Assembly: GCA_027604185.1 (NCBI GenBank)
Contig: JADGKB010000096.1
Coordinates: 1 to 54,770, forward strand
Direction: 5' to 3'
Length of the DNA stretch: 54,770 nucleotides
Source: Boothiomyces macroporosus
Taxonomy: Eukaryota > Chytridiomycota > Chytridiomycetes > Rhizophydiales > Terramycetaceae
Shown here piece by piece: positions 27-54,770 of this stretch; position 1 is the stretch's first letter, and the number at the start of each line of letters is the position of its first letter. The notes beneath the pieces were generated by a model. The model was not told where the DNA came from. It was given only the letters and a program-made list of their open reading frames with translations, and searched no databases. The position numbers and the translations under genes are program-made.

Positions 27-1925
27 ATGATTGACCAAAGCACTCTGGATGATGGACAAAACGCAGTGATCGCACGCCATACGATAATCACCAACAAGAA
101 AAGAAAGAACGCAACTGATAGCGAACCAATCGCTCGCATTCAGTGCAAGTATTGCCAGGTATCCTTCGTTCCCACTGCTAGCAATTTGGCAGCTTTTAAT
201 CATTTAAAAACCAAACATAAATCACTGGTTCCTGAAATTATTGAAGCAGACAAAAAATCAAAACCTGAATCAAGAAGTCTTCGGAAACACGAGGACGGAT
301 TTGAAAGCAAAGTGCTTTACCAGAAACTGTTAATGTTCGTTGTTACATCTGAAGTGCCGTTCTGTAAGGTGGAAAGTGAATCTTTCATTCGATTAATTTC
401 CTTCTTGCGGGAAGGCTTTGACACAAAAGAGATTTTAAATAATCTTGTTAAAAGCTTGGATCAAATGTATCTGGAAGAAACAGACTCCTTTACTCAATAT
501 CTGCAATCCTTGAAGTGCAAATTTTCTCTTACAGTCAATATACAACAAACGCTCTACTCAATTTTCCTAACTGTGAATATTCACTATGTGGATGAAGCCT
601 GGAACAAGAAGCATTCACTGTTGGCGCACAAGCAAGTTGACAATTTTGAGGAAAGTCTTGCTGATTGTTTGATAGCAATATTAGAGAAATTTAAAATTGC
701 TCACAGATTGTCAAGTATTACTTTAGATGAAACTTGCAACAAGACCACCATGATGGCAGAATTAGAAAAATATTATCAAACCATTTACCCGGAATTAGGT
801 TTCAGTCCAGCAAAGAATCAAATCAAATGCTTTGTCTGTGCAATGGATAACGCAGCAGAACAAATATTGAAACCATTCACCAAATGCTTGTATTCCAAAT
901 ACACTAGTGATGATAATTTGTATAATGCTATTTCCAAGGTATTTCGACTGATTAGAGAAATTCAATTTTCTATAGAAATTTTCGACTGTTTAAGACTGTA
1001 ATTATTTATTAATACTAGAAATGCGCCTATGGACTGTTTTACAATACAAAATCATGGCTTGGATGAATATACCAAGTGGAATACTAAATTAAAGATGATT
1101 GAAGCCACCAAAAATCTTTGTCCTGCACTCATTGAAACAGCAAATAATGTACTAAAGGATGAGAAGCTTGCTGCCCTAATACCAAATGATGCCGAATGGA
1201 AATTAATTGACCAACTTATTGATATATTATTGCCAATAAGAAAAACAATGGAACAAATCTCAATGAACGGTCAAGCTGGATTCGGAATTCCAAAATCACT
1301 TGTAGATTTTTATAAATGCACCACTCATTTGAAAGGTCAACTTGAAAGATACTCAAATTCAGATTTAGTTTACCATGGTATACAAGAAGCAATCAGCCAG
1401 TTAACGCACACTTATGAACAAACATCACCTCCAGTCAATATTGCAGTCATACTCAACCCATCAATGAAAAAAGTGGTTTTAAGTAGGCTCTTGTGTTGGA
1501 AAGATGACTTTATCGAACGAGCAAACACAGATATACATGAGCGCTATGAATCCTATGCATCAAAAGAAAAACCCAGAAAAGTACAGCTAAATGAAGATGA
1601 AACTAATTTGGAATTGCAGAAACAATGGAATGAATTATTAACTAATTTTTTCAGCGAGTTTGATAGGAAATACGAACTAGAAACTTTTCTTGGTGAAAAA
1701 CCTAAAGTGGTACCAGATGTTCTTGCCTATTGGAAAGATAACTTGGAGAATTTTCCAGTTTTAGCTTCCATGGCCAGAGATTATTTGTCAGTTCAATCCT
1801 CTAGTGTATCTCCTGAACAGCTATTCTCAAATGATGAAGAAAGTGAAATCTTTGATCGAGAACGCCTGCCTGGAGAGAATATTGAAAAGATTCAGTTTTT
1901 AAAGCATCTTTGGTTTGAAGAATAA
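27..1925 (+). CDS. hAT-family transposase-like protein with BED zinc finger, catalytic residues altered
   Basis: One 625-aa reading frame once a 21-nt intron (998-1018, GTAATT...TAATACTAG) is removed; the only in-frame stop (TAA 999-1001) lies inside it. An N-terminal BED finger has C40, C43, H59 and H64. The C-terminus carries the hAT dimerisation signature (YLSVQSSSVSPEQLFS). The transposase core is recognisable, but the positions where active hAT enzymes carry acidic or His residues read SLTVNIQQ (Asp to Asn), TLDETCNK and CFVCAM (His to Cys). This suggests a DNA-binding protein derived from a transposase, or a dead copy kept open. The frame is open to the left window edge, so the start may lie upstream of ATG 27. 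No terminal inverted repeats are visible. Family assignment is firm; loss of activity is inferred. Confidence 0.8.
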
Positions 1926-2102
1926 AAAACAGATTTGAACTGGTTGAATTCTAACTGGGGTTGAATGTCCTGCTATGGGTTAAAAGAGGATCTAGTATTC
2001 CAATGGTCTTTGAGGCTTTCTTTGTGACTACTAAGCCAGAAATGAAATGGCAATGTGGCATAGCCAAGACGCTATAAAACCACAAAACATTAAAACTTTT
2101 CA

Positions 2103-2726
2103 ATGACTGAAAACCCAACAATCTGCACTCTTGAACTTGATCCAGTTTCCAACAAATTTTACGGATCGTACACACCAATTACAGCACAGTACCTCAAGAA
2201 ACAAGAATTTGATCATATTTTAAACGCACTGGGAAAAGGTCCTTCTAATAATACTCAAAGAAATCAGTTCATCATCAACTACCTGTACGCTATATCCGTC
2301 GTTATCTCTTGGGTTGGGTTATTTCCTCTGATAATACCTCTTCTGCTCTATGTTATGGATCCTTTTAGTGGTAAACATCAATTACTACTTAATTGGTGGC
2401 TAGCGGTGTCTGTATACGGATTAATAGCTGGTTATGCAATCTATCCAACCGCCAGCGGAACTGCTATTCCGAATACTACCATAGATATGCTACAATTGCA
2501 AAAATCTTTTGTATTGACAACATGCGCTGCCTTGACATCAAAGTATTCGTTCAAAGGAATCGAGCTTAAAGTGGTTGAAGGCAAAGTGTACATTGTATTT
2601 TGTCAAAAGTACCTGGACTTGTTTAATGACAAAGTTTCAACTGATGGTTTCGAGCAAGTCGAGGATGATTCAAGTACCAAAAATATAAACGAGAAAAAGG
2701 CTCTCCTTCCCGCTTATTCAGATTAA
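2103..2726 (+). CDS. Hypothetical protein with two transmembrane segments
   Basis: Uninterrupted 207-aa frame starting at ATG 2103, 177 bp after the hAT-like gene. No family recognised. A polar N-terminus of about 55 residues is followed by a long hydrophobic stretch at about residues 57-86 (YLYAISVVISWVGLFPLIIP) and a second at about 96-117. The remainder is soluble and ends in an acidic, Ser/Lys-rich tail. The layout resembles small ER/Golgi hairpin membrane proteins, but no motif supports a function. A real gene is likely because the frame is long for this AT-rich DNA, has a hydrophobic pattern typical of proteins, and fits co-directional spacing between two real genes. Confidence 0.6.
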   Translation: MTENPTICTLELDPVSNKFYGSYTPITAQYLKKQEFDHILNALGKGPSNNTQRNQFIINYLYAISVVISWVGLFPLIIPLLLYVMDPFSGKHQLLLNWWLAVSVYGLIAGYAIYPTASGTAIPNTTIDMLQLQKSFVLTTCAALTSKYSFKGIELKVVEGKVYIVFCQKYLDLFNDKVSTDGFEQVEDDSSTKNINEKKALLPAYSD

Positions 2727-3002
2727 TCTGCTAATATAAGCTTTTTTTGAACTTTCTCAATTTACCCATAGTCACTCATTTGAATACCCTCATGCGTAAT
2801 TGCCAGCAAGAATGCATTATTTAGACTGCAACCGTAAAGAAACGCAAGCTATTTAGTTGATTTGTATGACAGCTGTTTGCGGCCGCAAGTTTCATTTCGA
2901 AAAGCGCTCCTCCGATGACCAAAAAACTGTGCCACCACACCCTTCTTTACCCGACGGGAATCTAAAATATAAATTTGACAAAGAATCTCAGTATATATCA
3001 AA

Positions 3003-3872: not shown

Positions 3873-3923
3873 ATGAATACTTTTGCAGTTAAATTTCTTA
3901 TGTTGAGAATTTTTTTCAGGAAA

Positions 3924-5668
3924 ATGTCTGATAGCAGCACCAGTTCAACAGCAGAATTAGCCAACGCAATCAAAGGACAGAGTGCTAAACAGACTTTTAC
4001 ACTTTTAGCGGATCACTTTCAAACCAAAATACTAATCGGCAAAAAGTACCAGTATCCAAAGGATCTGCCCGACAATTTTCTACCGCAGATAGTCAAATGT
4101 ACCCCATTCCCGTTAGACTTTATTCTATCAATAGTTGCAGAAAACGGATTCTTGATTCCTGCTGTTCAACGTAATTTTTACAAGTCTTTCAAAGACACAA
4201 TCAGTATGCTACAGGGCAAAGAATGCCCTAAATTCATTCATAAAGCCAAGTTTACGCACTATTCAAACGGAGCGCAATTCTGGCAAACTCAGAAAGCAAA
4301 AAGTAATGAATTTGTACAGAGATATTTATCGTTGCTGCGTGATCCTAAAAGATCGCCATGGTTAGCGGTCTATCTCAAAGACTTTAGCCTGCAAATAGGC
4401 GAATCTGGGGTTGAAAATGAAATAAGTTTGAAAGATACACTTGCCGCTATAAATCGATTAAAATTTGTTGATGCAATGTACGAATATTGCCAACTCGTTA
4501 ATATCTACGATTTGTACGACCATGTACCTCTCCAGTCGCTGTACAATGAATTAACAATCAAAAACCAGCTGCAAATTCTTGAAGTGCTACTAGGGAGTAC
4601 AAAATTGATGCATTATATGGATTACCTGGAAAATATTCTGGAATACACTATAACTGCAAAAACAATGATCAAAAATAGCCATTTTATAAATGGCGGCAAA
4701 ATAGTATCAAGGCTGTCCCCAGACTTTTCTGTTACGCGATACCCAGCTATTTACATTTCCAATTCTTCAAGGCAAATCAGATGGTACGCGCATAACATAA
4801 AGTCCCTAATCAATACACCAGGAAATCCAAAATACAACTTTGATGATATTTGCGAAAGCTATCTGGACGTCATTGAGGACCAGTTAAAGAAAACACCAAT
4901 TAGTAATGATGCACTATCACCCAGACATGTATTATTAGGATTACTGGTGGATGCTTTATCAGAAGCTGGACTGAAAATATTTGCAAAAAGAATATGCGAC
5001 AGAATTCCAGAATGCAATCTTTCACTTGGAGTAAGAGACGCAGAAATGGTTGGCAAAATAGATCCAACTATTCAATTCTACAATATCACAGGAACTGTAA
5101 ATATGCTTGATTCTTCAAATTACAACAAGTTGATTAAAGATATTTCAAAGATAAAGATTATATCTATAGATTGCGAGTGGAACACTTCCGATCTATCGAT
5201 TACTCAAATAGGAGCGGAATTCAAAGATAATTCAATTCATAACTACATACTGGACATGTTGAATATGAAACCAAACGAAATACAAGATATTTTCAAACTA
5301 CTCTGGGAAATACCAGTCATTGGTAGTCAAAATTAATATAGGCTTTAGTTGCGATCAGGATTTGAGAAAGATAAACCAGAAAGCAGAGGTTGGATACCCT
5401 TCAAACTTGATTGACCTATTTCAGTATTCCCCAACTGACTTTGGCTTCGATGCTCATGAATCTAAAAAAGGTTTGGATACCTGGACCAGCATCATCCTAC
5501 AAAAACAATTGGATAAACGTCCACGAATGAGCTTTTGGGAAAAACGGCCTCTTCGCCAATCTCAAATATTATATGCTGGTAATTCATATTAATTTAGCGG
5601 GTGATGTACAGGTTTTACTAGAATTATACCGAACACTGCATTCCATCAACCCAGCTATATTTGGGTAA
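3924..5668 (+). CDS. DEDD-type 3'-5' exonuclease, Mut-7/EXD3-like
   Basis: 568-aa protein in three exons; introns 5323-5341 (GTAGTCAAAATTAATATAG, 19 nt) and 5579-5597 (GTAATTCATATTAATTTAG, 19 nt). The N-terminal 400 residues are helical and of unknown role. The C-terminal third is a DnaQ-like exonuclease: DCEW (first Asp and Glu), GFSCDQDL (Asp), and YAAGD (DEDDy-type Tyr and last Asp). The last two motifs are only continuous after splicing, which is strong support for the 19-nt introns. Similar proteins (Mut-7, EXD3, WRN-exonuclease-like) trim RNA 3' ends; the substrate here is unknown. An in-frame ATG at 3873 abuts the SDR stop; 3924 (aaaATGtct) is preferred. Its stop is 22 bp from the convergent ABCG stop. 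Confidence 0.85.
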
Positions 5669-5690
5669 TAAATGAATACTATATTTTATT

Positions 5691-8055
5691 CTAGCGTCTT
5701 CTATCCCTATTAGTTACCATCATCACTGCATATCCAAGGACTCTCCAGATGAACCCAATCAGGAAAGCTATTCCAACGTCGAAATTGAATCTGCCTAGTG
5801 TATAGCCAAAAGCATCCGCTGTCCACTGTATCTCGAATATATTGACAAATGGTTGCACACCATCGTTAAACATTGCTTCGGTTAGCCATCTATTGTAGCT
5901 CATATCAAACAACCATCCAAAATGACCGTCTCTTGCAGTAACCAGTGTGATACCAAAACCTGCCGTAATGCCATGGAGCAAACAAATGACAACTGCCATC
6001 AAAGATGCGTCTTCTCTCTCGACCAAGAACGAAATCACCGCAGACAGACCATATATTCCAAAGTAAGTGCCAAATATAATCCAATAAAAGTGCCAGAATG
6101 ATATTAAAGGGTTGGGAAGTATGTGTAAAAACATTGTAAAGTGTAGTGAGCAGATTGCCAAACGGTAGAATGAAGAAATTGTTTTTCCAATATAGTAACC
6201 TAGTGTAGAATGTCCTGCGGAAGCTTCTCTCCAGAATACTGGCTTCTCTTCTGAAAATATTTTAACAGCCGCTGAAATTAGTGGTAATTACCTGGTCCAG
6301 CTGCCAAAGAAGAAGTGACGGCAATCAAGAAACCAAGTAGTGCCAATAACCACTCCAACGGTGCTGGGGATATTGGTGTCATTGGGATTATGTATACGCC
6401 AGTGTAAATTGTTGGTCCGCCAATTGCAAACCCCATAACTGCTCCAGCCAAGGAACTTAGGAAAATTTCTAGAGCAAATGATCCTGGGTTGGCCAGTTGC
6501 TGAATCAGTCCTCTGTGGTGGCAGTATAATATTTGGTAGAAAATATTTGCTCCTCTTTCTTTGATTAGTTTTGGTACTTCTTCATGAAAATCTGTTTTCT
6601 GGACAGTCTCTTCGACCGAAGGACGTTTTTCCCAAATATCAGCCAACTCGCTGCTTTTATACACTTTTTTTGTGTTTATACCTTTACCACTCAAAATGTC
6701 CATCAATACATCGGCAGGATTAGCTTGAGGGTCGAATACATAACCGAGCTCCTGATAGTATGCTTGGACACCGCTTACTGGTCCAAGATACGCTGTCCTG
6801 CCTCCCGGCGCAATCATTAAAATGTCATCGAATTTGTCAAATATCTCTACTCTAGGCTGATGGATAACTGCAACAGTAGTCAAGCCTAATCGAGTGATTT
6901 TACGGAGGGTTTCACAGACTTCCAAGGCGGAAGTGGAATCCAAGCCCGATGTTGGTTCATCTAAAAAGATACAGACTGGAACTGCAGCCAATTCAATACC
7001 AATATTAACTCTTTTTCTTTGACCGCCAGATACCCCTCTTCTAGTTTCATCCCCAATTATGGAATCTGGAAATTAAAACAGCAAATACCTTGCACGTGTG
7101 CCAAGTTTAGCACCAACAATAAGGCATCTACATACTTTGAAACTTCTACATCAGACCAAGATCTTGGAAGTCTGATTCTAGCCGCATGAGTCAAAATTTC
7201 CCGTACAGTCAAAGTTCTGATCATGACATCTTCTTGGGGCACATACCCAATCATTTTCTTGAAATCTGTAATTTCTGCCTCTTTTCCGCTTACATAAAGC
7301 TTCCCATCAGTTCTTGGGACTTTTCCGCACAACACATTCATAAAAGTAGTTTTGCCAGCTCCTGATGGCCCCATAATCGCGGTCATTCTTGCTGATTTAA
7401 TACTTCCACTGACGCCTTGCAACACTACTTTTCCTCCCTTCAGTTTCAATCCAAGATTTTCAAACTTGAACTCCATTTGTATGTTGCGTCCATTCAAACC
7501 TTTGTGAAATCCGTCAACCAGCAAATCCAAATCGCTTTGAACGGGAATAGCTAGTCCTTCCGGAGTTAGAACAGGAACCTGTTTGTCAGGATTAATTTGA
7601 GGTTTTGGATTCTGTCTCCTAAATGCCAGTTTGTAATACAAAAAGACTGCAAAGAGAAAAATGTCAACAATCACACAAGCGATAACTCCATCTAATTCGA
7701 AAGGAGTTTCGGAACCTTCCGCACATAGACTTGTTGATGAACATTTTATAGGGTTGACAGATCCTAATGGGCAATAGTAGCCCTGAGGACATATACTTTT
7801 TGTACTTCCGTTTCCACAAAAATATCCTCTCGCGCAGATTTGAGGCTCCAGAGGGCCTTGAGAGGTTGCACACCCGGCTCCTTCTAGCCGTTCTAAACTA
7901 CAAAGAAAAGAAGGAGGGCAAATTCTGGGAGAGGTTGCTGGATCAGAAGAAGTTGTGTTTGGACACCAAAAACCAGTCGGACATGTTAATCTTCCGTCAT
8001 CGTAGATGTTTGCTCCTGCAAACATTGGTTGAGAGAAGCAATTCCAGCTGGACAT
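5691..8055 (-). CDS. ABCG (WBC) half-transporter with Cys-rich N-terminus
   Basis: About 773 aa with introns 7066-7088 (23 nt) and 6272-6291 (GTAATTACCACTAATTTCAG). Order: Cys-rich extracellular domain (CPTGFWCP, CPQGYYCP), one TM segment, nucleotide-binding domain with Walker A GPSGAGKTT, signature VSGGQRKR and Walker B IFLDEPTSGLD, then the ABC2-type membrane domain (VFWREASAGHS, YYIGKTISS). Removing the 23-nt intron joins LAHVQ to DSIIGDETRRGVSGG; removing the 20-nt one joins SLAAGP to AAVKIFSEEKP, both exact family matches. It resembles plant ABCG24/28-type and fungal Cys-rich ABCG exporters; cargo unknown. The start is unsure: the frame stays open to 8112, and a signal-peptide exon may lie in 8113-8317, but I could not find one. 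Confidence 0.87.
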
Positions 8056-8317: not shown

Positions 8318-9716
8318 ATGCTCTCGTCAATCCTAATCGTGAATGCAAAGGGCGACGTTCTAGTCAGCAGAACCCACAGAAAAGACATCAAGTAAACAAA
8401 CCTAACAAAGGCGGAACTTGTCGGATATATTTCGGATCCATGTTATTTCAAACAGCGATGTTCGCTCACCAATCACCATCGTCGAGAATAACACATTTTT
8501 CCATGTTAAACACGAAAACATCTTTCTAGTAGCGGTTTCAATCGTGAATCCGAATGCTTGTCTTGTATTCGAGTTTCTGTATAAAATCATTTCACTTGGA
8601 AAGAGCTACTTTGGGTTGTTCAACGAAGACGCAGTCAAAAACAATTTTACGTTGATTTACGAGTTGTTTGATGGTAAATACTTACTAATTAGAAATATGC
8701 GATTTTGGATTTCCTCAAACTACCGAAGCGGACACTTTGAAACTGTATATTACCACGGAAGGAGTACAATCTGAAAAAACTGACCTGGATGCTTCGAAAA
8801 TAGCGATTCAAGCTACAGGAGCAGTGTCATGGAGAAGACCGGATATCAAATATAGAAAAAATGAAGCCTTTGTTGATGTGATAGAGAGTATAAATTTGAT
8901 TATCTCTGCAAAAGGCACCATTCTCAGGTCAGATGTATCTGGACAAGTGTTAATGAGAGCATACTTGTCGGGAATGCCAGAGTGCAAGTTTGGACTAAAC
9001 GACAAAGTAATGATTGAAAAACAAGGACCAAACCATCCAGCGAAAAACAAACTGAACGTGGAGCTCGACGATTGCCAATTCCACCAATGTGTTAAGCTAG
9101 GCAAATTCGACTCTGAAAGAACAATCAACTTTATACCGCCAGATGGAGAGTTTGAATTGATGAGGTATGAACATTTTAACGAGATACCGTACAACTGAAA
9201 ATGTTAGTTTGCCATTCAAAGTACACGCCAGTGTAAATGAAGTATCTTCAACAAGGGTGGAATTCAAAGTATCAGTAAGGTCAAACTATTCTTCCAAAAT
9301 TTACGCCCAAAACATGATCATTAGAGTACCCACACCACTAAATACTGCCAGTGTGAAAACTAATATACAAGGAGGTAGAGCAAAGTATGTCGGTGGTGAA
9401 AATTGTATTGTCTGGAAGTAATAATTGTTAATATTAGAGTAGCCAGGTTCCAAGGCGGGGAAGAGATCTTTCTCAGTGCAGAAGCAGAGCTTACGTCGAC
9501 GACAGTCAAAAAACAATGGTCAAGACCGCCTATAACGCTTGAATTCCAGGCAAGTTACGTTAATTGTAGGTTATTATGTTTACTGCTTCCGGATTGATGG
9601 TCAAGTTTTTGAAAATATTTGAAAAGAGCAATTATCAGAGTGTAAAGTGGGTGAGGTACATGACCAAAGCCGGATCATATCAAATCAGGGTAAACATGTA
9701 TTAACCAAAGTTTTAA
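8318..9716 (+). CDS. APM4: AP-2 complex subunit mu (clathrin adaptor medium chain)
   Basis: 426 aa in seven exons. Introns: 8392-8410, 8674-8692 and 9165-9183 (19 nt each), 9418-9437 (20), 9550-9569 (20, GC-AG) and 9690-9710 (21). Spliced protein follows the mu2 family end to end: longin domain (RSPITIVENNTFFHVKHENI, FEFLYKI, IYELFDEICDFGFPQ), then mu homology domain (SWRRPDIKYRKNE, YLSGMPECKFGLNDK, DDCQFHQCVKLGKFDSER, RVPTPLNTA, SRPPITLEF) and a terminus KWVRYMTKAGSYQIRF. It links clathrin and cargo at the plasma membrane during endocytosis. The last exon encodes one Phe plus the stop. Wording matches mu2 better than mu1. Divergent from the ABCG gene; ends 27 bp before the acetyl-CoA synthetase stop. 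Confidence 0.95.
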
Positions 9717-9743
9717 ACCGTAATAAATAGTAAATTCCAATGT

Positions 9744-11841
9744 TTATTGTTTGGCAGCAGTTTCAATCAAAATCTTTACGATGGATTGATCGGCTAGAGT
9801 AGAAATATCGCCCAGCTTTTCGCGGATGCCAGCGTCAGTTTTGGCGTCTTCTAATGTGACATCTTTGGCCGCTACTTTACGTAAAATTCTTCTCATAATC
9901 TTACCAGAGCGAGTCTTTGGCAAATCTGGAACAATAATTACGCGTTTTGGAGTAGCAAACGGTCCAATGTTTTGTCTAACTTGAGCGCGGAGAGATTGCT
10001 GAAGTTCAGTGATATCAGAGTATCCAGACTTGACAGAACAGAAACAAACAATTGCTTCTCCAGAAATGTCATCTGGAACACCTACTACAGCTGCTTCGCC
10101 GCACAATGGGTGGAGAATAAGAGCAGATTCGACTTCAGCAGTACTCATTCTGTGCCCTGATACATTGATTACATCGTCTACTCTTCCTTGGATCCAGTAG
10201 TAGCCATCCTTGTCTCGCTTTACACCATCACCAGCAAAGTAGAATCCTGGGTAAGGTTTCAAGTAAGTATCCATGTATCTCTTGTGGTTGTCGTAAACAG
10301 TTCTTGCAATTGATGGGAAAGGAGATTTTATAACCAAAACACCTTCGACATCATTTCCCACCAACTCTTGCCCAGTTTGTGAATCTAATACACCCAATTC
10401 CACACCAAAGAATGGTTTAGTTGCAGACCCAGGCTTGGTGGTGGTTACTCCAGGAATTGGAGTTACCACAATAGAACCAGTTTCAGTTTGCCAATCTACA
10501 TCAGTAATAGGATACAGGTATCAACAATCATGCAGCGTTTTCTTCCAACAACTTCGTGATACCATAGCCAAGCTTCAGGATTGATTGGTTCACCAACGGA
10601 GCCCAATACACGAATAGAGTCTAGTTTGTAGCCTTCGAGGTGTTTGTCTCCAAGTCTCCTTAATGCACGAATAGCTGTTGGGGCGGTGTAGAATTGAGTG
10701 ACCTTGTGAGTGTCGACGAGGTCCCAGTATCTAGAAGGAGTTGGATAAGTAGGAACACTTTCAAAGATAACAGTCGCAACACCATTGGAAAGGGGTCCAT
10801 ATACGATATACGTATGTCCAGTAATCCAACTATTGTCATTTAACAATTACCCTACGTCTGCCATACATCCATGAACATCATTTGGATGCATATCAAAGAC
10901 GTACTTGCAGGTCATTGTTGCACCAAGTAAATACCCGGCTTGGGTGTGAACAACACCTTTAGGCTTCCCAGTAGACCTGGATTTAGCGAAATAGTTACCC
11001 AGAAGTGTATAACATGAAGAGCGGATCTTCACTTTTCATCATTTCAGGTGGACAAACTGGTCTTTGGTTATCCTAGCATTATATAATGAATTACGACTAC
11101 TTCGTGCCACCAGACATCTCTCTCTGGAGTAAACGGAACCGATTTGTCTCCGGTTCTTTGGAAAACAATACAGGTCTTTACGCAAGGACATTGTTCGATG
11201 GCAGCATCAACAATTTTCTTGAGATGGGTAACTTTTCCTCCTCTCATTCCTTGATCCGCTGTAATAACAACTGCACACTCTGCATCCAAGATTCTATCTC
11301 TTACTGCATCTGATGAAAATCCAGCGAAAATAACACTGTGAATAGCACCAATACGGGCGCAAGCCAACATAGCCACTGCTGCTTCGGGGATATTTGGCAA
11401 ATAAATGGCAACTCTGTCTCCTTTCTTTACGTGGTACTTTTTCAAGGTATTTGCAAATTGGCATACTTTTCTCAACAGTTCAGCATAAGTGATCTTTTGT
11501 GCTCTGCCTGTATTAATATAGCTGACCTGGCTCATCGGCTTCATAGATGATTGCCACTTTGTTTGGAGTAGCGATTGCATGACGATCAACGCAGTTGTAA
11601 GACACATTCAACTGGCCGTCATGGAACCAATTAACGTCTCCCTGGTGGAAACCACCGGCCTTGACCTTGGTAAACGGTTGATGCCAGTGAAGGAGATTCT
11701 TTCCCATCTGATGTTAGACTAGAGTACTTTATCAAAAAAGGTTTCTGGGGAAGCGATCGATTCCTTGTACATTTCTTCATAGGTTTCTTTGGTCAAGTGG
11801 TGGGCATGTCCTTGGAATTGTGGAGGTTCAAACTCGAGCAT
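9744..11841 (-). CDS. ACS: Acetyl-CoA synthetase (AMP-forming)
   Basis: 657 aa in seven exons. Introns: 11708-11727 (20), 11508-11526 (19), 11073-11094 (22), 10977-10998 (22), 10830-10850 (21), 10496-10515 (20). It makes acetyl-CoA from acetate, ATP and CoA. Motifs in order: [15 protein letters not shown] (adenylate-forming P-loop), [62 protein letters not shown], and TRSGKIMRR holding the acetylatable catalytic Lys. Each intron falls inside a conserved motif, and only these exact boundaries restore it: for example VDTY/WQTETG across GTATCCTATTACTGATGTAG, and ADVG/WITGH. Length matches fungal Acs1/Acs2 (about 650-710 aa). Start at ATG 11841 gives the family N-terminus ([19 protein letters not shown]). 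Confidence 0.96.
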
Positions 11842-16891: not shown

Positions 16892-16912
16892 TTCTCCGAT
16901 TTCGCGTTAAAA

Positions 16913-21106: not shown

Positions 21107-21428
21107 ATTAATTCGCACGTTAAAATTTCAAATGCCAGATTGGTCGCTGATCAGATATTTTGATTTGACAATTTAATTACGATTGCTGTAAAAGTCAAAG
21201 TCAAAATGTCACACCAGTGGCTCATTTGAAAAGAAGAAATTTCGGAAAGGAAATTCTATTTCAAGGACAAAACCACTTTGTTATAATCCGCTGGATAGAA
21301 GCGGATCTCTATCTACCTGGAACATCAGTGTATTGACTCTCTTCTTCTTTAGAGAGCATTTTGCTTTTTGTATTTTGTGACAGTGGCTGGGCGTGTCATG
21401 ATTCAAACAGTAGAAAAATTTCAACTAA
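21107..21428. other. Spacer between tandem GTPase-homeodomain genes
   Basis: 322 bp, AT-rich, no frame. Expected to hold the terminator of the first gene and promoter of the second. Confidence 0.5.
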
Positions 21429-33258: not shown

Positions 33259-33270
33259 TTGTTTAGCCGA

Positions 33271-40786: not shown

Positions 40787-43621
40787 ATGAAATTCTCAAG
40801 TTACTTGGGATTGATTTCAGCTTGGATATCACTGACTGGCGCTCAAGTGCCAGTCGTGAATGCAACAGTGACAACATCTGCTGAACCAAATATCCCAATG
40901 CCAACTACTGCCAACATTCAAAAACCAACAGTTACACAAGTAGGACCACTAAAAACTCCTGGAATCGCTGCACATCCAGCGAAAGGCAATCCTGGAAAAT
41001 TACAGAAAGCAGTTAGTTCAGCGACTGCACCACATCGCAGCTCTTTACGAACAACTGCTTCCACACCAACCACGACCACTTCCAGCGTTCCCACAGCAAC
41101 CATTGAAGCCACAACTATTGTCGTAGCAGCAGCACTAAGCAACGCAACTCCTACCCAAAATACCCCAACAGTACAGAAAAACTCGACAATTTCAGAAAAC
41201 CATCAAACCACCAAGGATGATCCACTCTTCAATCAATTTATAACTGAAATGGCGGGCGTATACACACTACTTTCATTTGTGGTTTTTGTCATCTCATTCG
41301 TGCTATTGGTAATCACCGTCCGGCACTTTAAATCAAAAGGAAAAATGGACCCTGTACATGCTGGTGCTCTAAGATACTGCGCGGCTCAAGGTAACATCTC
41401 TGCACTCGAGTTGCTTTCAAAACAGCCAAACTTTAATGTGAACTCTAGTCACGATGGCTTTACTGCTCTACATGCTGCATCTGTTGCTGGTCAGACCAAA
41501 GCAGTAGAGTGGCTACTGAACAATGGTGCAGACACTTCATTGAAAAAGAATGATGAATGGAACGATACTGCTCTACACTATGCTGCAGCTAAAGGCCATG
41601 CAGATGTCGTAGCGGTAAGGAATTACTAATAATAGCTTCTACTAAAACACGGAGCAGCCCAAGAAAAAAACTTTGCTGGACAATTACCAATTGATTTAGC
41701 AAAAGAATATAACCACACCAAAGTACTTCGAGCTTTCTATGAATTTGAAAACCCAGATGCCGTCTTGAATCCACCACAATCAGTTCATGAAGGAAACTTT
41801 TATCTTGCTGATTCAGAAAGCAGCGATGGCTATGCCTCCTCTATTTCATCTAAACACACACAAGAAGTTGATGAAAGTGACCTTTCATGGGTGCTAGAAC
41901 GCAGATGGGACAACGCAGGGACTCCTGGAACAAAGATTTACCCAAACACAGCATTGACAAAGTTCTTTGTGGTTGCTTCTGTTTTCATTACACTGATCTA
42001 CATTACCTGGAGAGCGTGCCGAACCATCAACCCAGATCATCTCGGCTACAGCATCTTTATCTACGTGTGCGAGCTGTTTCTGACTCTGCAGTTCTTGCTG
42101 TCTCTGGTGTTGATGTGGGCCCCAATCACCCGTCCCGACAAGGACCTGTACAAGATGGTTGGCGAATCCGAGTTCCCTACCGTCGACATCTACGTCGTTA
42201 CCTACAACGAAGACGAGGAGATTGTCGATGCTACTGTTTGTGCTGCTGCTAATATGCAGTATCCAAAGAGGAAATTGAATATCTTTGTTCTAGATGATGG
42301 TAAACGGGACAACATCAGACTCATGTCACTCAGAATCCAAGCAGAATTGGAATCGATTGGAAGCAGAGTCAAGATCACATACTGCGCAAGACCAAAGGTG
42401 AAAGGTGTCAACCACCACGCCAAGGCTGGAAACATCAACCACTGCTTCACAAAGCTCCCGCAATCCAAGGGCGACTACGTGCTCATCCTCGACTGCGACA
42501 TGATTGTAACAAAGAGCTTCCTGCTCAAGACCATCCCGCACTTTTTCGAGCTGAAGAACGGCAAGTACGTGCGCAAGGAAAAAACCGCGATGCTGCAGAT
42601 CCCGCAGCGGTTCTACAACCTGGGCAAGAATGATCCGTGGTGGCACACTGCCGAAGACTTTAACGCTGCCGGGTTCGAAGGCTCCGACGGTGTTGGAGGC
42701 ACGCCCTGTGTCGGGACTGGCGTGCTGTTCAGGAGAGAGTGCTTGCTCTCGCTCGGCGGCCAGTCCTACTGGTCGGTCACCGAGGACTTTAAGACGTCGT
42801 TCAACCTGATTGGCGAGGGCTTCTCGACCATGTACCTGTTCAGAAACCTGGTCTTTGGCATAGCTGTTGACGACGTCGTTGGCATCTACAAGCAGAGGCT
42901 CAGATGGTCCACCGGCGGCCTGCAGATCCTGCAGTACGACAACCCGCTCTTCAAGGTCGGGCTCCCGTGGGCTGCCACGTCGCTGTTCTTTTGCAACGCC
43001 TGGCAGTATGTGCTGTGCATCCCGTATCTGGCAGTGACGATCGCGCCTTTGGTTTACTTTATTCTCGGCGTTTCCCCAGTGTACACCCTGCTGCTGGAGA
43101 CTTCGATCTTTGTGGGCGGGTTCATCCTCGTCACCCGCTGCCTGCAATGGTGGCAGGTGCGCCTGATCAGGGGGAGCAAGGACATGGCTCTGTGGAGGGG
43201 CTGCCAGCAGATTGTGTGGTTGGCGCCAATCTTTTTCCACTCGCTGTGCCAGATGGTCTGGCTCAAGACCGGCAAGAGAGTCATCGAGTTTATCCAGCGC
43301 AAGACCTCCCACGTTGAATTTGTGACTTCCAGAAAGGACGGCGCAAAGATGCCAATCACCGAAATCCTAAAGTCCAACTGGTTCCCGCTGCTCGCGTACT
43401 CGGCGTTCTTGTTTGGAATAGTCTGGCACGTTGTTCGTCTAGCGCTCAAAATTGAGACACCTAACGCCAACTGGATTCTGCAATGGTGCCTCGGTTTCTT
43501 CCTGTGTCTGGTTGTGTGCATGATGCTGTACCCGTCATTCAGTGACACCTTCCCAATCCTTGTTCGCGAAGAAAAAGGGTTCGTTTCATGGGAATGCAAT
43601 TCTTGTTGTCTTTGGTGTTGA
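40787..43621 (+). CDS. Membrane-anchored ankyrin-repeat/cellulose-synthase-type GT2 fusion, copy 1 (C-terminus replaced)
   Basis: 937 aa; intron 41615-41635 (21 nt). Signal peptide MKFSSYLGLISAWISLTGAQ, a Thr/Ser-rich ectodomain, a TM helix at about 158-180 (YTLLSFVVFVISFVLLVITV), and about three ankyrin repeats (DGFTALHAASVAGQTKAVEW, DTALHYAAAKGHADVVA). TM helices and a processive GT2 domain follow, with DDGK, DCD, TED and QRLRW. This motif set marks beta-glucan/cellulose-type synthases that extrude polymer through the membrane. At 43594 the frame leaves the family sequence and runs into the second copy, stopping at TGA 43619 after CNSCCLWC. The cytosolic tail and final TM helix of the other copies are therefore missing. 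Whether it is functional is doubtful. Sugar donor and product not determinable. Confidence 0.88.
42194..43594 (+). repeat. GT2 core repeat, unit 1 (1401 bp)
   Basis: Direct repeat with 43702-45102 at an offset of 1508 bp, apparently without mismatches in the stretches compared. It is inverted relative to about 53208-54577. It is GC-rich (40 of 60 bases at 42661-42720 against 23 of 60 at 41641-41700, counted by hand). Confidence 0.9.
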
Positions 43622-47118: not shown

Positions 47119-47127
47119 CTTGTTTTA

Positions 47128-47911
47128 TTAAAGCTTTGGAATTCTTAATGTCTTTGACACCATTGCAAAAGACCAAAAGACGTAAACCAAAGTAAACTTG
47201 TGAATCTTGAATATCCATATTTCAGTCAACCCACCTGGTATCCCCTCTGTCAAGTATCCCCATTCAGCCCAATACTACCTTAACATTCACTTACCCACAT
47301 TGTTAGTACCAGTACTAGAGAAGACGGTATAGGCAACCCCTGGAAATATTTCATTTTACCTGAATTATCCTTAGGTACGATATGCGCTGTCACATTGAAC
47401 CTCGCCAACCTAGATTAAATATACTTGCCTCGCCAACCCAGCACATACAAATAAACTCAAAAATATAAAATCATGCTGTGTTCGTAATCCAATCAGAAAT
47501 CCTAAACATGCTGGTGCAACCCCAAAAGAAATTAAATCAGCCAAGGAATCCAGTTCTTGACCAAGAATGCTACTATTCCTACATTAATATAGCGTACCCG
47601 CTCCATCGTGCAACTTTGCCATCAAATACATCAAATGCAAACCCGAGTAAAGGAAATAGAAACGCATATCGCATGGTCCATAATTGATCGGTAGTGAGAT
47701 TGATTGGAAGTGAAGGCGGTGATAACTGACAAACTAGTGACATGGTTGATAATACTGATGATACTCCGCACTGGTATTAAGTCTAATTACGAGCCCATTG
47801 CATATAGTTACTACCTATGTTAGTGGAGCGTACATCCGCAAGTTTAAAGTTACGTGCAAGCGAGAATCGCTGGTAATCATCATTGTATTCCTTCAACTGT
47901 GTTTTGGTCAT
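47128..47911 (-). CDS. CHO1: CDP-diacylglycerol-serine O-phosphatidyltransferase (phosphatidylserine synthase)
   Basis: 228 aa in six short exons. Introns: 47815-47833 (GTACGCTCCACTAACATAG), 47771-47790 (GTAATTAGACTTAATACCAG), 47579-47597 (GTACGCTATATTAATGTAG), 47410-47428 (GCAAGTATATTTAATCTAG, GC-AG) and 47275-47294 (GTAAGTGAATGTTAAGGTAG). Spliced product follows the Cho1 family: [47 protein letters not shown] (the CDP-alcohol phosphatidyltransferase DG-AR-G-D-D motif, completed only by splicing), [40 protein letters not shown] and SKTLRIPKL. It makes phosphatidylserine from CDP-DAG and serine in the ER. Naive reading shows nothing but fragments. It starts 45 bp downstream of the Sel1 gene stop. 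Confidence 0.95.
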
Positions 47912-47956
47912 GAGATTTTGAATTTACAAAAATCAAAAATAATTATCAATGATTTA

Positions 47957-50900
47957 TTATTTGCCAAACAAGGAAGTAAGGAATCCCTTCTTCTTCCTTT
48001 GATTTTGTGCCTTGAGGTAATTAGGATCTAATTTCTTTAGTTTCTTTTGCGCCCGTTCATCGCCTATGGTTATTCTCGCTTACCCAACTCATGCGCTTCC
48101 TTGTATTTTTCCAAAGCAATGTCCATATCCTCGCTCACTCCGATACCCTTCTCATAGAAATATGCCAGGGTAAATACCGCTCTCGCTAACCCGGATTCAG
48201 CTGCTATAGAACAGAGCTTGAACGCCTTTTCTTCATCTTGTGCCAGTAGGTCTGGAACACCAGTCATATGCCTACCATTAATTGTAACTTACCATCCAGC
48301 TAATCCCAGCTGCCCATCAGCATTACCTTGATCAGCAGCCAAAGTGTATAATCTAATGCTTTCACCAGGATTGCTTTCTACCCCCATCAAACCATGCTCA
48401 TAGCAATATCCCAGCTTGTATTGTGCTGGTGCGTAACCAAAATCAGACGCTTCTTTCAACACGCTCAGAGCATACTTTTTATCTGGGGCAATAATTCCTT
48501 CTACTCCATGTTCATAAATTACACACAATTCGTACAGAGGTTCAGGATGATTTGGATTTGGAACTAGATTAAATAAAAGTTACCTGCTGCAGCTCTCTTG
48601 AACCATTTGATTGCCTTGTGAATATCCGGTTTCAAACCAAGAGTTCCTTCTAACTCTGCCAATCCTAATCTATACATTGCATCAAGGTCTCCTGAAGAAG
48701 CTGCCTTATTATACATCTCAATAGCCACCCGTTTAGACTTCTTGCAGCCTTTTCCTTCTTCATAGCACTTGCCAAGTTTGTAAAAAACGGGAGAATAGTT
48801 CTTTTTCGCAGCAAGCAAATACTGGGAAAACGCTGCAGCATCTTTCTTATCATCTGCATAGGAATCCCCCAAAAACACGTTTGCTTCTGGGTATGTATTT
48901 GCATTGGCTACCTTTCTGAGAAGTACATATCCTTCATCGATATATTCTTCAATACCAGATGCTAGACATAACCTAATATTAAATAAACTTACTTTGCAAA
49001 CTCAAACAGTTCTTTTGGTTCGGTTGAATTTTTCAAAGCATCCTTTTGTCTAGCAAGGAACTCTCGATTAGATACAGGGAGTTTGGTAGCTCCTAAAGTC
49101 GCTCTTCGATTAAGAGTTGTAAAAGAGGGGCGAACTTCGTCTATTGTAAGCTGAGGGCTATTTGGTGCAGTCTCTGCGTCAGTATCGGTCAACGATGCTT
49201 CTGATATTCTACCCTCGTCAAAACTGAAATCTGAGATTGTAGCTTTACTGGATTTCATTCTTTCCAAAGTATTTCCAGTATGGAACGATAAATCGCGATC
49301 TGGCCCAAACTTCTTGATATTTATAGAGTTTGTGCGATATACTGGTACTTGTTCCTTTTCAGTCCTCATTTGTTCAGGTGATTGGTAACCAACCGGCATA
49401 TACGATGGCACACCAACCGGGGGGTTTGATTCGGAGACTCCAGAGAAAATATGACTAGGTGGTTGATGAGGATAAGGAGCATAATATGGATATCCTGGCA
49501 TTGACGGATATGAAGACTGATGTTGGGGATGTCCTTGAACCTGAGCAAGAGGTTGGCCTGGTGTTTGTCCTGGATAAGGTTGAAACTGTGGATATGGATA
49601 TGGATAGTACGGATATCCTTGCGGAGGTACTTGCCCAGATTGATTACCATCTGCACCTGTCATTCCAGGTGCTGGAGGGTATGGGTACGGATAGGGGTAA
49701 AATGGTGGATACTGCTGTGGATGAGATGCTTCAGATTCACCGTCTTTTGGAGGTGGGACGGGGTAAGGATAGGGATATGGCATATGAGGTGGATATGGGT
49801 AAGGATAAGGAGGAGAAACTGTCGATTGATTGCTAGCTGCTCTTTGGGGAGTTCCTTTCTCAGGGGAACCAAGCTTCATTTCAGAAAAAACTTTTGAAGG
49901 AGAATCTGAAGGATTTGCATGCTCTGGAGATTTGGACCTACTAAGGGTTTCAAGCATATAGCTAGGTTTTTGGACTACTGGAGAAGCAGCAGTAGGCTCA
50001 TCATCAAACGGTTCCTTGTCACTGGTATAGTCTACACTATCAGAACGGAAAGTAATAGTGCTGATTGCAGATTTCAGTCCACCAGACTTTGTGGAGCGCA
50101 TTGTCTTGAATTCGTCAAATTGTACATCCAACTTTGCAAATTTTCCTTTTTTCGATTCTGTAGAATCCTGTCTCTTTGGTTCGTCAATAGACATTGCGCT
50201 ATTAGTTCTATTAACTGCCAATATTTTGTTTTCATCTTCTTTGGCTGGAGATTTCACGATTGTTGAGCCAGGATCAAGACTGGATCTTCTAGAATGGATA
50301 CTCGCTCGTCTTGTTTCAATAGTTGGTTCATCGATTGACATTTCACTGGAAGATTTTTTTGGGGGGACATTTTCAATTGATGCAGCTCTTTGAAGCCTCT
50401 TTTCTCGCTCTTCGCTCACGATTGATAATTCGTTTTTCAACTTGCTGTATTCCTTTGCTGAAGGATCAAGTACGGATCTTGATTTCCTTAAAACTTTTGA
50501 CTTTTTGAATTCCTCTAGTCCAGGAGATATTGCTTTTTTCCTTCTTTCAAGTTCGTCATCACTATTATCCTTTGAATGATTTGTGTTTCTAGATTCAGAT
50601 CTAACAAAAGCTTTAAAGTAATCCAAATCTTGGTCGAAATCCAACGGTTCAAAGTTCAATGAAACTTTTGGCAATTCCCTGTCAATAGCTGTAGGCGATT
50701 TTAATGATACTGACTGTTCGACCTCTCTGGTAATTTTGCTACTAGTATTTTCTGTTGGCTGATTAAAAGTAGGTAGTGTAATAAATGGCTGCACAACAGG
50801 TTCAAATCCAACACTCTCGTTATCACTATCTTCATCCTCTGTGCCAGATGATTCCTTCTTTTCCTTCTTTTTTATTTTCTTCTTGTCAACTTTAACCTTC

Positions 50901-52563
50901 ATTTCATCTGAATCTTCTGTTCCCGACGACTCATTTTTAATCTTTTTCTTTTCACTCTTCTTTGCGATTGGCTTGGGAGGTTCTGAATCCTCCGTACTGG
51001 ATGAAGGCATCTTTTTAATGGTTGGGATTTCTTTTTGTAAAACTGGTGATTTTTCGTCATCCGATTCTGTTCCTGAAGAGTCTTGTTTGACAGGGTTGGT
51101 TTCTATTTTTGGAGCTTTTTTCACAATTTCCTCATCGGAGCTTTCTGTTGACGAGCTTTCCTTGAGCATCCTTTTATTTTCTTTAGTTGGTGATTTTGGA
51201 AGTTTAGGAGATACCTTAGTTGGTGACTTTTTCTGACTGTCATTATTTAAACTATCGAAAACTTCTCTGGCAAATCCACTGCTTTTTTCTGACGATATAT
51301 CTGTTCCTGATTTTGAAGTTTTTGAAATAGAATCCCGTCTACTATCATGCTTCACTGGCTTGGATACAACTTCAGATGCTCTCTTTGATTTCTTTTTTGG
51401 AACTGGATAAGGAGCTTTGAATTCCGGTTTATTCCCAAACGAAGTAGGCAGAACCATAGGGTTAAAGTCATAACTAGATGCTTCTGATATCACACTCTCA
51501 GTCCCAGAAGTAGCCCTAGAAGATGGTCTTTGAAGTTGATGTGGAGCTAGATAATCAGGATTAAAGTATTTAGGGATTTTTGCATCTGTTGACATTGACA
51601 AATGCTTCTTTTTTTCTGGATTCAGTTGCGGTGGTTGATACGATTGTGGTCTTGATTTCCTGCGATGATCTGATCCAGCGTTAGATGAAGTATTATTTGA
51701 GTTTGATTTCTCCTTGTGTTTCCTGTCCTTTGGTTCTTTTGGTGTTGGTGGAAGTGGCTTTCTTAAAGCGCTGAGAGGAACATCATCATCTACGTCTCTT
51801 TGCAGAGCTCTCAACGGAATATGATCTTCAGAATCTTTTTGTAATGCACTTAGGGGTACATCATCGTCCACGTCTTTCTGTAAGGCACTTAATGGAACAT
51901 CGTCGTCCAGATCTGGCTGGTTGAAACCAATAGCCGGGTTTTCCTGATTCCTAATTTGCAGTGGTACATCATCGTCATCCGAAAATTGCTGTTTTTGTAC
52001 CTGCAATGGGGTATCCGAAGATGCGGTAGGACTACCCGGCTTTTCCGGAGATATGCTCTAAAATCAAAATCAGCTTACTCCTTGATAATACTGACTGGTG
52101 TTGCTCATGCGCATATGTAAAGGTATCGAATTTTGCATCGGGTTTGGTTTCATTTGCTATCTTAACAGAATATTACTGAATACATTTGCCGGTTACGGTT
52201 TTGGATTGGCGTAGGGTTTTGAGAGAGTCGGTTCATGTCTATCATTAGATCTTTTGTACTCTGCACAAGCGGTGCATCATCTTCAGAGGATTCATCCCTC
52301 ACAGAGCGCTGATTAAATTGTCCTGCAGGCTGATTATATTGAGGAATTCCTTGGCTATACTGTAAATTATACTGCGGCTGTGCTGGGATATTTGTTTTTA
52401 CTAGTGGTGAATCATCTTCAGAATCGCTCCCATCGGGAATTCCCTTGGGAAATAAAGGCTTGTCATCGTCAGAGTTATCTGAACCAGAATTCAGCTTCCT
52501 GGGCGGTAGCGGAGGTGATCTGATTGGATTCTTTCTTGGGGGTAGCTTTGGAGGTCCGCTCAT
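47957..52563 (-). CDS. Sel1-repeat protein, Chs4/Skt5-like synthase regulator with long disordered N-terminus
   Basis: 1494 aa in seven exons. Introns: 52157-52176 (20), 52058-52078 (21), 48973-48992 (20), 48564-48583 (20), 48272-48292 (21) and 48064-48083 (20). The first 1100 residues are disordered: proline motifs (PPKLPPRKNP), at least eight acidic motifs of type (D/E)DDxPL (SDDDKPL, SEDDSPL, SEDDAPL, DDDVPLSAL), Ser/Lys blocks (SSGTEDSDEE-like), and a Tyr/Pro tract (YPYPYPPHMPYPYPYP). The last 350 residues hold Sel1 repeats (YKLGKCYEEGKG, YRLGLAELEG, YKLGYCYEHGLMG, FTLAYFYEKGIG) and end in KKKGFLTSLFGK. Skt5/Chs4 proteins bind and activate chitin synthase at the plasma membrane. No CaaX box is seen. 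It lies between GT2 synthase copies, which fits a shared wall role, though this is inference. Confidence 0.85.
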
Positions 52564-52817
52564 AAAGAATTATCGAGTTTGAAAATGGAAAAATGAGAAA
52601 ATCAGCCACGGCGTTAGTGAGGTGAGAACATTTCGCAAAAATCCAATAAATCCGGAATCCTTGGGCAATAACAGACCTGAATGGTTTCGTCTTTGCATTC
52701 TAATTTACCTCTCATTGATTGTCTTTTTTTTAAAAAACTTCGCAAATTATCAGGCTACGACTTAATGTTTCATCCAGCGGCAAACTTTACTATAATTCTC
52801 CGATGAATTTATTTTAA

Positions 52818-54770
52818 TTATATTCTAGTATCTTTGGTAATGTATACAGCCACCAAAGGTAAACCAATAGCCGCAAATAGCACCATCGTGCCTTGCAGCA
52901 CACGGTACTTCCAAACGGTGCTTGGTTGTTGCACCAAGTTGAACACTGGCGTCTTAATGACTGAAGATGTAGTAGATGATGCAACTGACTCTGCTAAACT
53001 ATCAGCAAACGAAGCAGTAGATCCGCTATTCTACTATTAAAATAAAAAAACCTTTTGGGTTTTGAAATATGCTTCACCATCTAAAGAACTTCTGGAAACT
53101 TCTTCTCTAATTCTTTGCATTGCTTTGGACTTGACCATTCTCCTTTGATCCTTCATATCTCCCACATTCTCAATGTCAAGCTGGCCTTGTACAATCTTTG
53201 GGTCAATTTCCCATGAAACGAACCCTTTTTCTTCGCGAACAAGGATTGGGAAGGTGTCACTGAATGACGGGTACAGCATCATGCACACAACCAGACACAG
53301 GAAGAAACCGAGGCACCATTGCAGAATCCAGTTGGCGTTAGGTGTCTCAATTTTGAGCGCTAGACGAACAACGTGCCAGACTATTCCAAACAAGAACGCC
53401 GAGTACGCGAGCAGCGGGAACCAGTTGGACTTTAGGATTTCGGTGATTGGCATCTTTGCGCCGTCCTTTCTGGAAGTCACAAATTCAACGTGGGAGGTCT
53501 TGCGCTGGATAAACTCGATGACTCTCTTGCCGGTCTTGAGCCAGACCATCTGGCACAGCGAGTGGAAAAAGATTGGCGCCAACCACACAATCTGCTGGCA
53601 GCCCCTCCACAGAGCCATGTCCTTGCTCCCCCTGATCAGGCGCACCTGCCACCATTGCAGGCAGCGGGTGACGAGGATGAACCCGCCCACAAAGATCGAA
53701 GTCTCCAGCAGCAGGGTGTACACTGGGGAAACGCCGAGAATAAAGTAAACCAAAGGCGCGATCGTCACTGCCAGATACGGGATGCACAGCACATACTGCC
53801 AGGCGTTGCAAAAGAACAGCGACGTGGCAGCCCACGGGAGCCCGACCTTGAAGAGCGGGTTGTCGTACTGCAGGATCTGCAGGCCGCCGGTGGACCATCT
53901 GAGCCTCTGCTTGTAGATGCCAACGACGTCGTCAACAGCTATGCCAAAGACCAGGTTTCTGAACAGGTACATGGTCGAGAAGCCCTCGCCAATCAGGTTG
54001 AACGACGTCTTAAAGTCCTCGGTGACCGACCAGTAGGACTGGCCGCCGAGCGAGAGCAAGCACTCTCTCCTGAACAGCACGCCAGTCCCGACACAGGGCG
54101 TGCCTCCAACACCGTCGGAGCCTTCGAACCCGGCAGCGTTAAAGTCTTCGGCAGTGTGCCACCACGGATCATTCTTGCCCAGGTTGTAGAACCGCTGCGG
54201 GATCTGCAGCATCGCGGTTTTTTCCTTGCGCACGTACTTGCCGTTCTTCAGCTCGAAAAAGTGCGGGATGGTCTTGAGCAGGAAGCTCTTTGTTACAATC
54301 ATGTCGCAGTCGAGGATGAGCACGTAGTCGCCCTTGGATTGCGGGAGCTTTGTGAAGCAGTGGTTGATGTTTCCAGCCTTGGCGTGGTGGTTGACACCTT
54401 TCACCTTTGGCCTTGCGCAGTATGTGATCTTGACTCTGCTTCCAATCGATTCCAATTCTGTTTGGATTCTGAGTGACATGAGTCTGATGTTGTCCCGTTT
54501 GCCATCATCCAGAACAAAGATATTCAATTTCCTCTTTGGATATTGCATATTAGCAGCAGCACAAACAGTAGCATCAACAATTTCTTCATCTTCATTGTAG
54601 GTTACGACATAAACATCAACGGATGGGAAATCGGCTTCTCTAATCATCTTGTATAGTTCCCTGTCTGGTCTAGTAATTGGAGACCACATCAACACCAAAG
54701 ACAACAAGAATTGCAGAGTCAAAAATAGTTCGCACACATAGATAAAGATACTGTAGCCGAGATGATCTGG
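52818..54770 (-). CDS. Cellulose-synthase-type GT2, copy 3 (5' end outside the window)
   Basis: 643 residues visible, open to the right edge; intron 53031-53051 (21 nt), at the same position as in copy 2 but with unrelated sequence. TM segment VCELFLTLQFLLSLVLMW, then the same GT2 core with DDGK, DCD, TED and QRLRW. The core is nearly identical to copies 1 and 2 (for example Ala to Thr in RIQTELES), while the tail (IDPKIVQGQLDIENVGDMK) and last exon (SVIKTPVFNLVQQPSTVWKY, TM GTMVLFAAIGLPLVAVYI) have diverged. The missing N-terminus probably carries ankyrin repeats as in copy 1. Orientation is opposite to copies 1 and 2. Confidence 0.88.
53208..54577 (-). repeat. GT2 core repeat, unit 3 (inverted)
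   Basis: Inverted copy of 42194-43594 and 43702-45102. Nearly identical over about 1.2 kb; differences cluster at the right edge (54410-54610), where synonymous changes accumulate, as expected at the end of a conversion tract. Confidence 0.85.

Follow-up and report, generated by a model that had tools for sequence, protein, structure and literature searches.

Introns of 18-23 nucleotides predominate in a sample of the genome of the chytrid fungus Boothiomyces macroporosus, alongside conventional splicing factors

Contig JADGKB010000096.1 of Boothiomyces macroporosus, a chytrid belonging to the Terramycetaceae in the order Rhizophydiales, was analyzed here in its entirety (contig C96, 54,770 bases, hereafter the window); it carries genes interrupted by segments of about 20 nucleotides (nt). 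These are very probably U2-type spliceosomal introns of the ordinary kind, shortened almost to what is physically possible, a reading drawn from genomic DNA and protein comparison. An initial annotation of the window had placed 54 introns at 18-23 nt (1, 16, 20, 13, 2, and 2 in order of length); the curated set holds 52 in the same range, with one of 18 nt, 16 of 19, 20 of 20, 10 of 21, three of 22 and two of 23. That annotation also took them for spliceosomal introns of a fungus, an identification to which the lengths obtained from homology alone, GT-AG or GC-AG ends and a branch-like motif all point. The source assembly comprises 216 contigs and 15,203,306 bases, and the window was joined to 20 loci of 10 kb, taken at a single set position from each of the 20 largest contigs, to give a wider sample of 254,770 bases.

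Gene structures were derived with an unsupervised spliced-gene model (expectation-maximization), in which coding statistics came from long open frames and introns needed only a GT start and an AG end. The initial prior was flat over intron lengths of 10-300 nt, and lengths and splice signals were learned iteratively from the model's own output. A first, flat-prior version drew long false introns that fused adjacent genes, and iterative learning with a sharper start cured most of these. In the first round on the wider sample, with no length or motif yet learned, 24 of 92 introns fell at 18-23 nt. In the last round 282 of 313 did so (283 at 17-23 nt), with a mode of 20 nt and a modest tail above 21 nt. 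Introns of 18-23 nt are present in 20 of the 21 stretches at a density of 1.54 per kb of coding sequence. Extrapolation from 282 introns in 254,770 bases gives approximately 17,000 in the assembly, a rough figure in view of how the loci were chosen and of the repeated segments in the assembly. In the window, 51 of 56 model introns measured 18-23 nt; one of these (47360-47378) was judged false and removed, and two GC-AG introns, each restoring a conserved protein, were added.

Fake splice signals do not reproduce this distribution. When the model was run for four rounds, GT-AG placed 278 of 309 introns at 18-23 nt, with 7545 as the total gene score, against 11/142 for CT-AC, 10/182 for TG-GA, 7/188 for GA-TG and 10/160 for AG-GT, with scores of 5747-5952. 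Plain counts of GTA...YAG spacings in the window showed a weak, indecisive bump (69 at 19 nt over a background of about 48).

Intron lengths were also measured without any splice signal. For each of three window genes, 119 homologues were compared with the unspliced DNA by ungapped tblastn, deposited Boothiomyces proteins being excluded, and intron length was read as the shift between adjacent matches. All 17 introns measured 19-22 nt, identical to their lengths in the gene models. In the acetyl-CoA synthetase the first intron was 20 nt in 71/71 junctions at the main position (6/14 in an adjoining bin) and the remaining five were 19 (110/119), 22 (105/109), 22 (119/119), 21 (116/116), and 20 nt (117/117). 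The presequence protease gave 19 (113/115), 20 (108/108), 19 (51/51), 21 (101/103), 19 (57/57), and 19 nt (84/84). In the cytochrome b5-fatty acid desaturase the first two introns summed to 42 nt in 51/70 junctions, with 21 nt in the other 19/70, and the last three were 21 (20/27), 20 (115/117), and 20 nt (118/118). The spliced synthetase aligned gap-free at all six junctions with fungal and other enzymes of the PDB (best PDB chain; two alignments examined). The remaining shifts were scattered multiples of three, save a 36-nt shift near 9840 seen in 75/82 junctions. This was rejected as an intron and treated as an inserted coding stretch, since it is a multiple of three and is retained in a GenBank protein of identical length.

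A genome-wide pattern search bears the size class out beyond the sampled loci. The consensus pattern GTAA-N(3-33)-CTAAY-N-TAG, with a total length of 16-46 nt, occurs 996 times in the assembly, compared to 369 for the same pattern read backwards. Among the first 100 places listed, all on contigs C1-C4 with some overlapping and some in repeated segments, 85 are of 19-22 nt (44, 26, 12, and 3 by length), 15 are spread over 25-45 nt (six at 25-29), and none are of 16-18 or 23-24 nt. At 60-90 nt the pattern shows no excess across the genome (276 versus 370 reversed), and several of the matches listed there merely end at a tiny intron.

As first described, most of these introns start with GTA (261 of the 283 introns of 17-23 nt) and carry T or C before the AG (249 of 283; third-last base T in 188, C in 61, A in 34). 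T at position +5 (43%) is more frequent than G (18%). All 17 homology-measured introns are GT-AG. When GC donors were allowed, 4 of 314 introns in the wider sample were GC-AG, and one more, in a phosphatidylserine-synthase-like gene of the window, was found by hand. Removal of the GC-AG intron in the window's adaptor-complex subunit gene restores the frame and the conserved end of the protein, lengthening a gene that stops at 9597 in the GT-AG model. A strict YTRAY motif, mostly TTAAT, CTAAT, or TTAAC, is found in 204 of 283 introns. The A of this motif occupies position 14-16 in 194 of them, and in 180 it precedes the last G by 5-6 nt. Because the gene model itself learned the last 8 intron bases, the homology set is the fair test of this motif: all 17 contain T-R-A placed so that its A falls at 14-16 and is 5-7 nt away from the last G, whereas in 2000 shuffles of the intron interiors 1.9 did so on average and never more than 7. 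Among the 283 short introns, 241 have T-R-A at the expected place. So near the intron end, the branch-like A leaves no space between itself and the AG for a polypyrimidine tract, as the initial annotation held; instead, the part upstream of the branch is T-rich (43% T versus 27% in exons). Intron GC content is 29%, compared to 40% in exons, and the three phases count 105, 102, and 76. Selection against stop-free introns of 3n length was not seen in this set (stop-free 25/77, versus 39/86 and 36/120 for the other two length classes).

Does a genome with such introns retain the usual splicing machinery? The initial annotation had expected altered recognition machinery and proposed a survey of the same genome that included U2AF, SF1, and U2 small nuclear RNA (snRNA). 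These three were found, and at the level of gene presence the expected alteration is not borne out. There are two U2 copies (142.2 and 135.4 bits) and one U6 copy (62.2 bits), all above cut-off, and one U1 copy just below it. The contact boxes are ATACTTACCTG at the U1 5' end, GTGTAGTATC in U2, where the branch-pairing box contains GTAGTA, and ACAGAGA-AGATTAGC in U6, and we take these to be canonical. The Slu7, Prp18, and SF1 genes are above their cut-offs, with spliced models scoring 294.1, 183.2, and 113.9 bits (SF1-HH). The spliced U2AF65 model, from contig C2, matches a PDB chain over its RNA-binding domains (1.3e-61) and the C-terminal domain at about 1e-22. Loss of Slu7 and Prp18 had been expected from the short branch-AG distance, and was rejected as both genes are present; in general, Stentor and mikrocytids have lost early or second-step factors, which need not be a defining trait of such introns, but no such loss is encountered here for Slu7, Prp18, SF1, or U2AF65. 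The machinery genes themselves carry tiny introns (Slu7 21, 20, and 23 nt; Prp18 21 and 21; U2AF65 19, 20, 19, and 19). The SF1 model has introns of 20, 225, 24, 22, and 21 nt, the 225-nt call fusing SF1 to an adjoining gene.

Proteins already deposited in GenBank splice 13 of the 17 homology-measured introns exactly. The synthetase (P0241, 657 residues) is 100% identical to the six-intron spliced model, the protease (P0121) has three of six introns exact, with 7, 6, and 6 residues missing at the other three, and the desaturase (P0001) has four of five exact, with 14 residues missing at one.

Several observations weigh against reading the segments as compressed but ordinary introns. By our reading the four remaining introns of the 17 were stretched in GenBank, to approximately 62, 40, 37, and 37 nt, and it is because of this stretching that P0001 and P0121 would drop 14 and 19 conserved residues. 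Strict YTRAY is missing from 79 of the 283 short introns and T-R-A at the expected place from 42. The U1 copy scores 68.8 bits, just below the gathering score of 69.5, and the unspliced U2AF65 search gave 230.7 bits against an NCBIfam cut-off of 310.3, this family also having sub-cut-off matches in 2 of 14 control genomes. RED, whose retention had been expected, is needed by human spliceosomes when the distance from 5' splice site to branch is short; neither RED_N nor RED_C had a match in this genome, which is no proof of absence because no control genome matched either.

The claim that every intron is 18-23 nt long goes further than the counts. The range covers 282 of 313 model introns and 17/17 measured by homology, and the ultrashort class is the large majority. 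It is quite possible, though we lean against it, that a minority of clearly longer spliceosomal introns exists beside the tiny ones. Thirty-one of the 313 model introns lie outside 18-23 nt, 24-26 of them in loci outside the window, where they are uncurated model output, and two window calls of 88 and 130 nt, both in one repetitive gene, belong with these. On the other hand, three of the five window exceptions are otherwise explained: a 39-nt call is a mis-drawn 19-nt GC-AG intron, a 62-nt call is the junction between two near-identical gene copies, and a 273-nt call (16844-17116) was rejected as it fuses a Vps36-like gene to its neighbor. The homology-tested introns include none above 22 nt, fake signals yield even more long false introns, and the missing excess at 60-90 nt argues the same way for introns of the GTAA and CTAAY-N-TAG type, the only ones the pattern covers. 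A few introns of 24-29 nt may also be real, for example the 24-nt intron in the SF1 gene model.

All the present evidence comes from genomic DNA and proteins, and would also suit segments removed from the DNA or skipped in translation; this is highly improbable given the GT-AG or GC-AG ends, the constant spacing of the branch-like motif and the canonical snRNA boxes of the spliceosome, and simple read-through cannot absorb the segments because lengths of 19, 20, and 22 nt are not multiples of three. Chance, in the form of GT-AG pairs that happen to mend frames in a weak and artefact-prone gene model, is refuted as a general explanation by the fake-signal controls, the homology-only measurement and the genome-wide excess, all independent of that weakness, and has almost no probability left, though single introns may still be wrong. 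In favor of chance, the coding statistics were learned from limited sequence, the first round of the model was noisy, and adjacent introns lie only 0-3 nt apart in 4 of 187 internal exons.

For compressed U2-type introns we infer excision from RNA and a lariat at the branch-like A. The 5' splice site (GTA, rarely GC) would contact U1 and then the U6 ACAGAGA box, the branch A some 13 nt downstream would pair around GUAGUA of U2, and the 3' AG would come 5-6 nt after it, the major spliceosome acting by intron definition with its sites at minimal distance. The U6/5' splice site helix of the human B complex is 17 nt long and its U2/branch helix 14 nt, with some 15 nm between the two; approximately 52 nt between 5' splice site and branch are reported to be needed without structural change, and the minimum near 50 nt is ascribed to the geometry of this complex (PMC6692369). 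The equivalent spacing here is only 13-15 nt. As helices of 17 and 14 nt cannot both fit into some 14 nt, they would have to be much shorter or form successively rather than simultaneously, or the complex would have to be built differently. For human short introns with a truncated tract, SPF45 is reported to replace U2AF (PMC8363638). We consider it likely that essentially all spliceosomal introns in the intron-rich 15-Mb genome of this fungus, by extrapolation about 17,000, measure 18-23 nt and place the branch A 13-15 nt downstream of the 5' splice site, with the canonical boxes of U1, U2, and U6 and the factors U2AF65, SF1, Slu7, and Prp18 all retained; that the fungal spliceosome activates at about one quarter of the human ~52 nt, perhaps without RED, via shortened or successive helices; and that this arrangement arose independently of those in ciliates, rhizarians, and nucleomorphs.

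The comparisons drawn in the initial annotation agree with published lengths. Introns of the Bigelowiella (chlorarachniophyte) nucleomorph are of 18-21 nt and resemble those described here in length class and narrow range and in being numerous within the genome, but belong to a relic nucleus with approximately 300 intron-bearing genes, not to a 15.2-Mb nuclear fungal genome (PMC10245619). Stentor coeruleus, with introns of 15-16 nt, is likewise a free-living host with GT-AG, AT-rich introns and U2AF and SF1 homologues (PMC9505925). The branch A is nearly fixed in both, at the 10th or 11th position in Stentor and the 14th-16th here; the chytrid introns are 4-5 nt longer and their branch motif is clearer, and the chytrid has Slu7 and Prp18, both listed as not found in Stentor (PMC9505925). 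Mikrocytid introns of 16-17 nt are also very short and uniform, but these are parasites with a highly reduced spliceosome and, in Mikrocytos mackini, 224 predicted introns (PMC10245619). In contrast, second-step and branch-site factors are present here and the sample implies introns by the thousand. Among fungi, Cryptococcus neoformans is similarly intron-rich with short introns and, of the fungi studied, is reported to have the largest proportion below 100 nt (PMC11913375). Its introns average 56 nt, however, and the few below 40 nt are reported to be notably poorly spliced (PMC11913375); in a survey of 644 fungal genomes its mean is 63 bp (PMC8476143). The initial annotation knew of no fungus described as using introns of this size exclusively, and no description from a chytrid or other fungus turned up in the open-licence literature; the intron passages of a 2026 Rhizophydiales genome paper give method settings only (PMC13391722). 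We rate these as ultrashort, narrow-range spliceosomal introns, a known class, in a new kingdom-level setting: 282 of 313 lie within six lengths and the branch position is near-fixed (194/204 at 14-16).

The window genes and their introns are collected in Table 1.

Table 1. Intron-bearing genes of the window and GC-AG introns of the wider sample (lengths in nt in brackets; "by eye" marks names given by inspection)
Feature	Position (strand)	Introns	Basis and remarks
Acetyl-CoA synthetase	9744..11841 (-)	11708-11727 (20), 11508-11526 (19), 11073-11094 (22), 10977-10998 (22), 10830-10850 (21), 10496-10515 (20)	model, homology, PDB alignment
Presequence protease	28731..31682 (-)	31416-31434 (19), 31327-31346 (20), 30931-30949 (19), 30317-30337 (21), 30051-30069 (19), 29832-29850 (19)	model, homology; Pfam M16C_assoc, Peptidase_M16_C, PreP_C, Peptidase_M16
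Cytochrome b5-fatty acid desaturase	25387..26833 (-)	26633-26653 (21), 26593-26613 (21), 26360-26380 (21), 26143-26162 (20), 25583-25602 (20)	model, homology
Adaptor-complex medium (mu) subunit	8318..9720 (+)	8392-8410 (19), 8674-8692 (19), 9189-9207 (19), 9418-9437 (20), GC-AG 9550-9569 (20)	model; Pfam Adap_comp_sub
Inositol monophosphatase	32365..33225 (-)	32952-32969 (18), the shortest	model; Pfam Inositol_P 231.5 bits
ABC-G type transporter (by eye)	5691..8025 (-)	7066-7088 (23), 6272-6291 (20)	model
Exonuclease-like gene (by eye)	3924..5668 (+)	5323-5341 (19), 5579-5597 (19)	model
Vps36-resembling gene (by eye)	15697..16891 (+)	16006-16024 (19), 16182-16200 (19), 16414-16433 (20)	model
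Repetitive gene also drawing the 88- and 130-nt calls	(+)	17310..17331 (22), doubtful	model; counted among the 52
Gene 33433-34380	33433..34380 (-)	33936-33955 (20), 33812-33830 (19), 33690-33710 (21)	model
Lectin-repeat oxidase-like gene (by eye)	35452..39018 (-)	38825-38844 (20), 36674-36696 (23), 35685-35704 (20)	model
Sel1-repeat-like gene (by eye)	47957..52563 (-)	52157-52176 (20), 52058-52078 (21), 48973-48992 (20), 48564-48583 (20), 48272-48292 (21), 48064-48083 (20)	model
Phosphatidylserine-synthase-like gene (by eye)	47128..47911 (-)	47815-47833 (19), 47771-47790 (20), 47579-47597 (19), GC-AG 47410-47428 (19), 47275-47294 (20)	low-scoring model, 8.2
Secreted-hydrolase-like gene (by eye)	27216..28387 (-)	27923-27942 (20)	model
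Gene 27-1925	27-1925 (+)	998..1018 (21)	model
Gene 21429-22513	21429-22513 (+)	22378..22397 (20)	model; links start to homeobox-like end (by eye)
Ankyrin and glycosyltransferase-like gene (by eye)	starting 40787 (+)	41615..41635 (21)	model
GC-AG introns, 19-21 nt		window 9550-9569 (+), 47410-47428 (-); L008 1460-1480, L020 6371-6390, L022 4968-4988	mostly GCAAGT start

In the desaturase, a 19-nt exon (26614-26632) lies between two 21-nt introns, and two spliceosomes can hardly occupy this site together because the whole intron-exon-intron unit (26593-26653, minus strand) is of 61 nt. Two adjoining genes at 19469-22513 (+) each seem, by eye, to combine a GTPase-like domain with a TALE-type homeobox-like end, an unusual fusion, and the second reaches its homeobox only via a 20-nt intron. 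Three near-identical copies of a glycosyltransferase-like gene occupy 41765-45273 (+) and 53037-54770 (-). Two of them stand in tandem and meet abruptly near 43577, and the third is truncated where the contig ends; they are either a recent duplication or an assembly artefact. The gene at 12859-13710 (+) encodes a predicted secreted protein that has NTG repeats and a cysteine-bearing module occurring repeatedly. Elsewhere in the assembly, approximately 269.6-298.2 kb of contig C2 is repeated at 312.2-340.7 kb, with similar recurrences on C3, C10, C16, C18, and C20. Identical pattern matches recur within contigs at constant distances, ranging from a few kb to about 54 kb, which suggests large duplicated segments or uncollapsed haplotypes in the assembly.

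These introns have a practical consequence, as RNA aligners and gene finders that set the shortest allowed intron at 20 nt or more will miss or stretch them. The stretching of 4 of 17 introns in GenBank seems to result from such settings, and other deposited proteins of this genome probably suffer in the same way. The large question raised is how a very large spliceosome grips some 20 nt of RNA, and a chytrid is nearer to yeast and animal splicing models than are ciliates or rhizarians. Other tiny-intron organisms confound loss of spliceosome parts with tolerance of tiny introns; introns of 18-23 nt beside a conventional set of the factors tested separate these two ideas.

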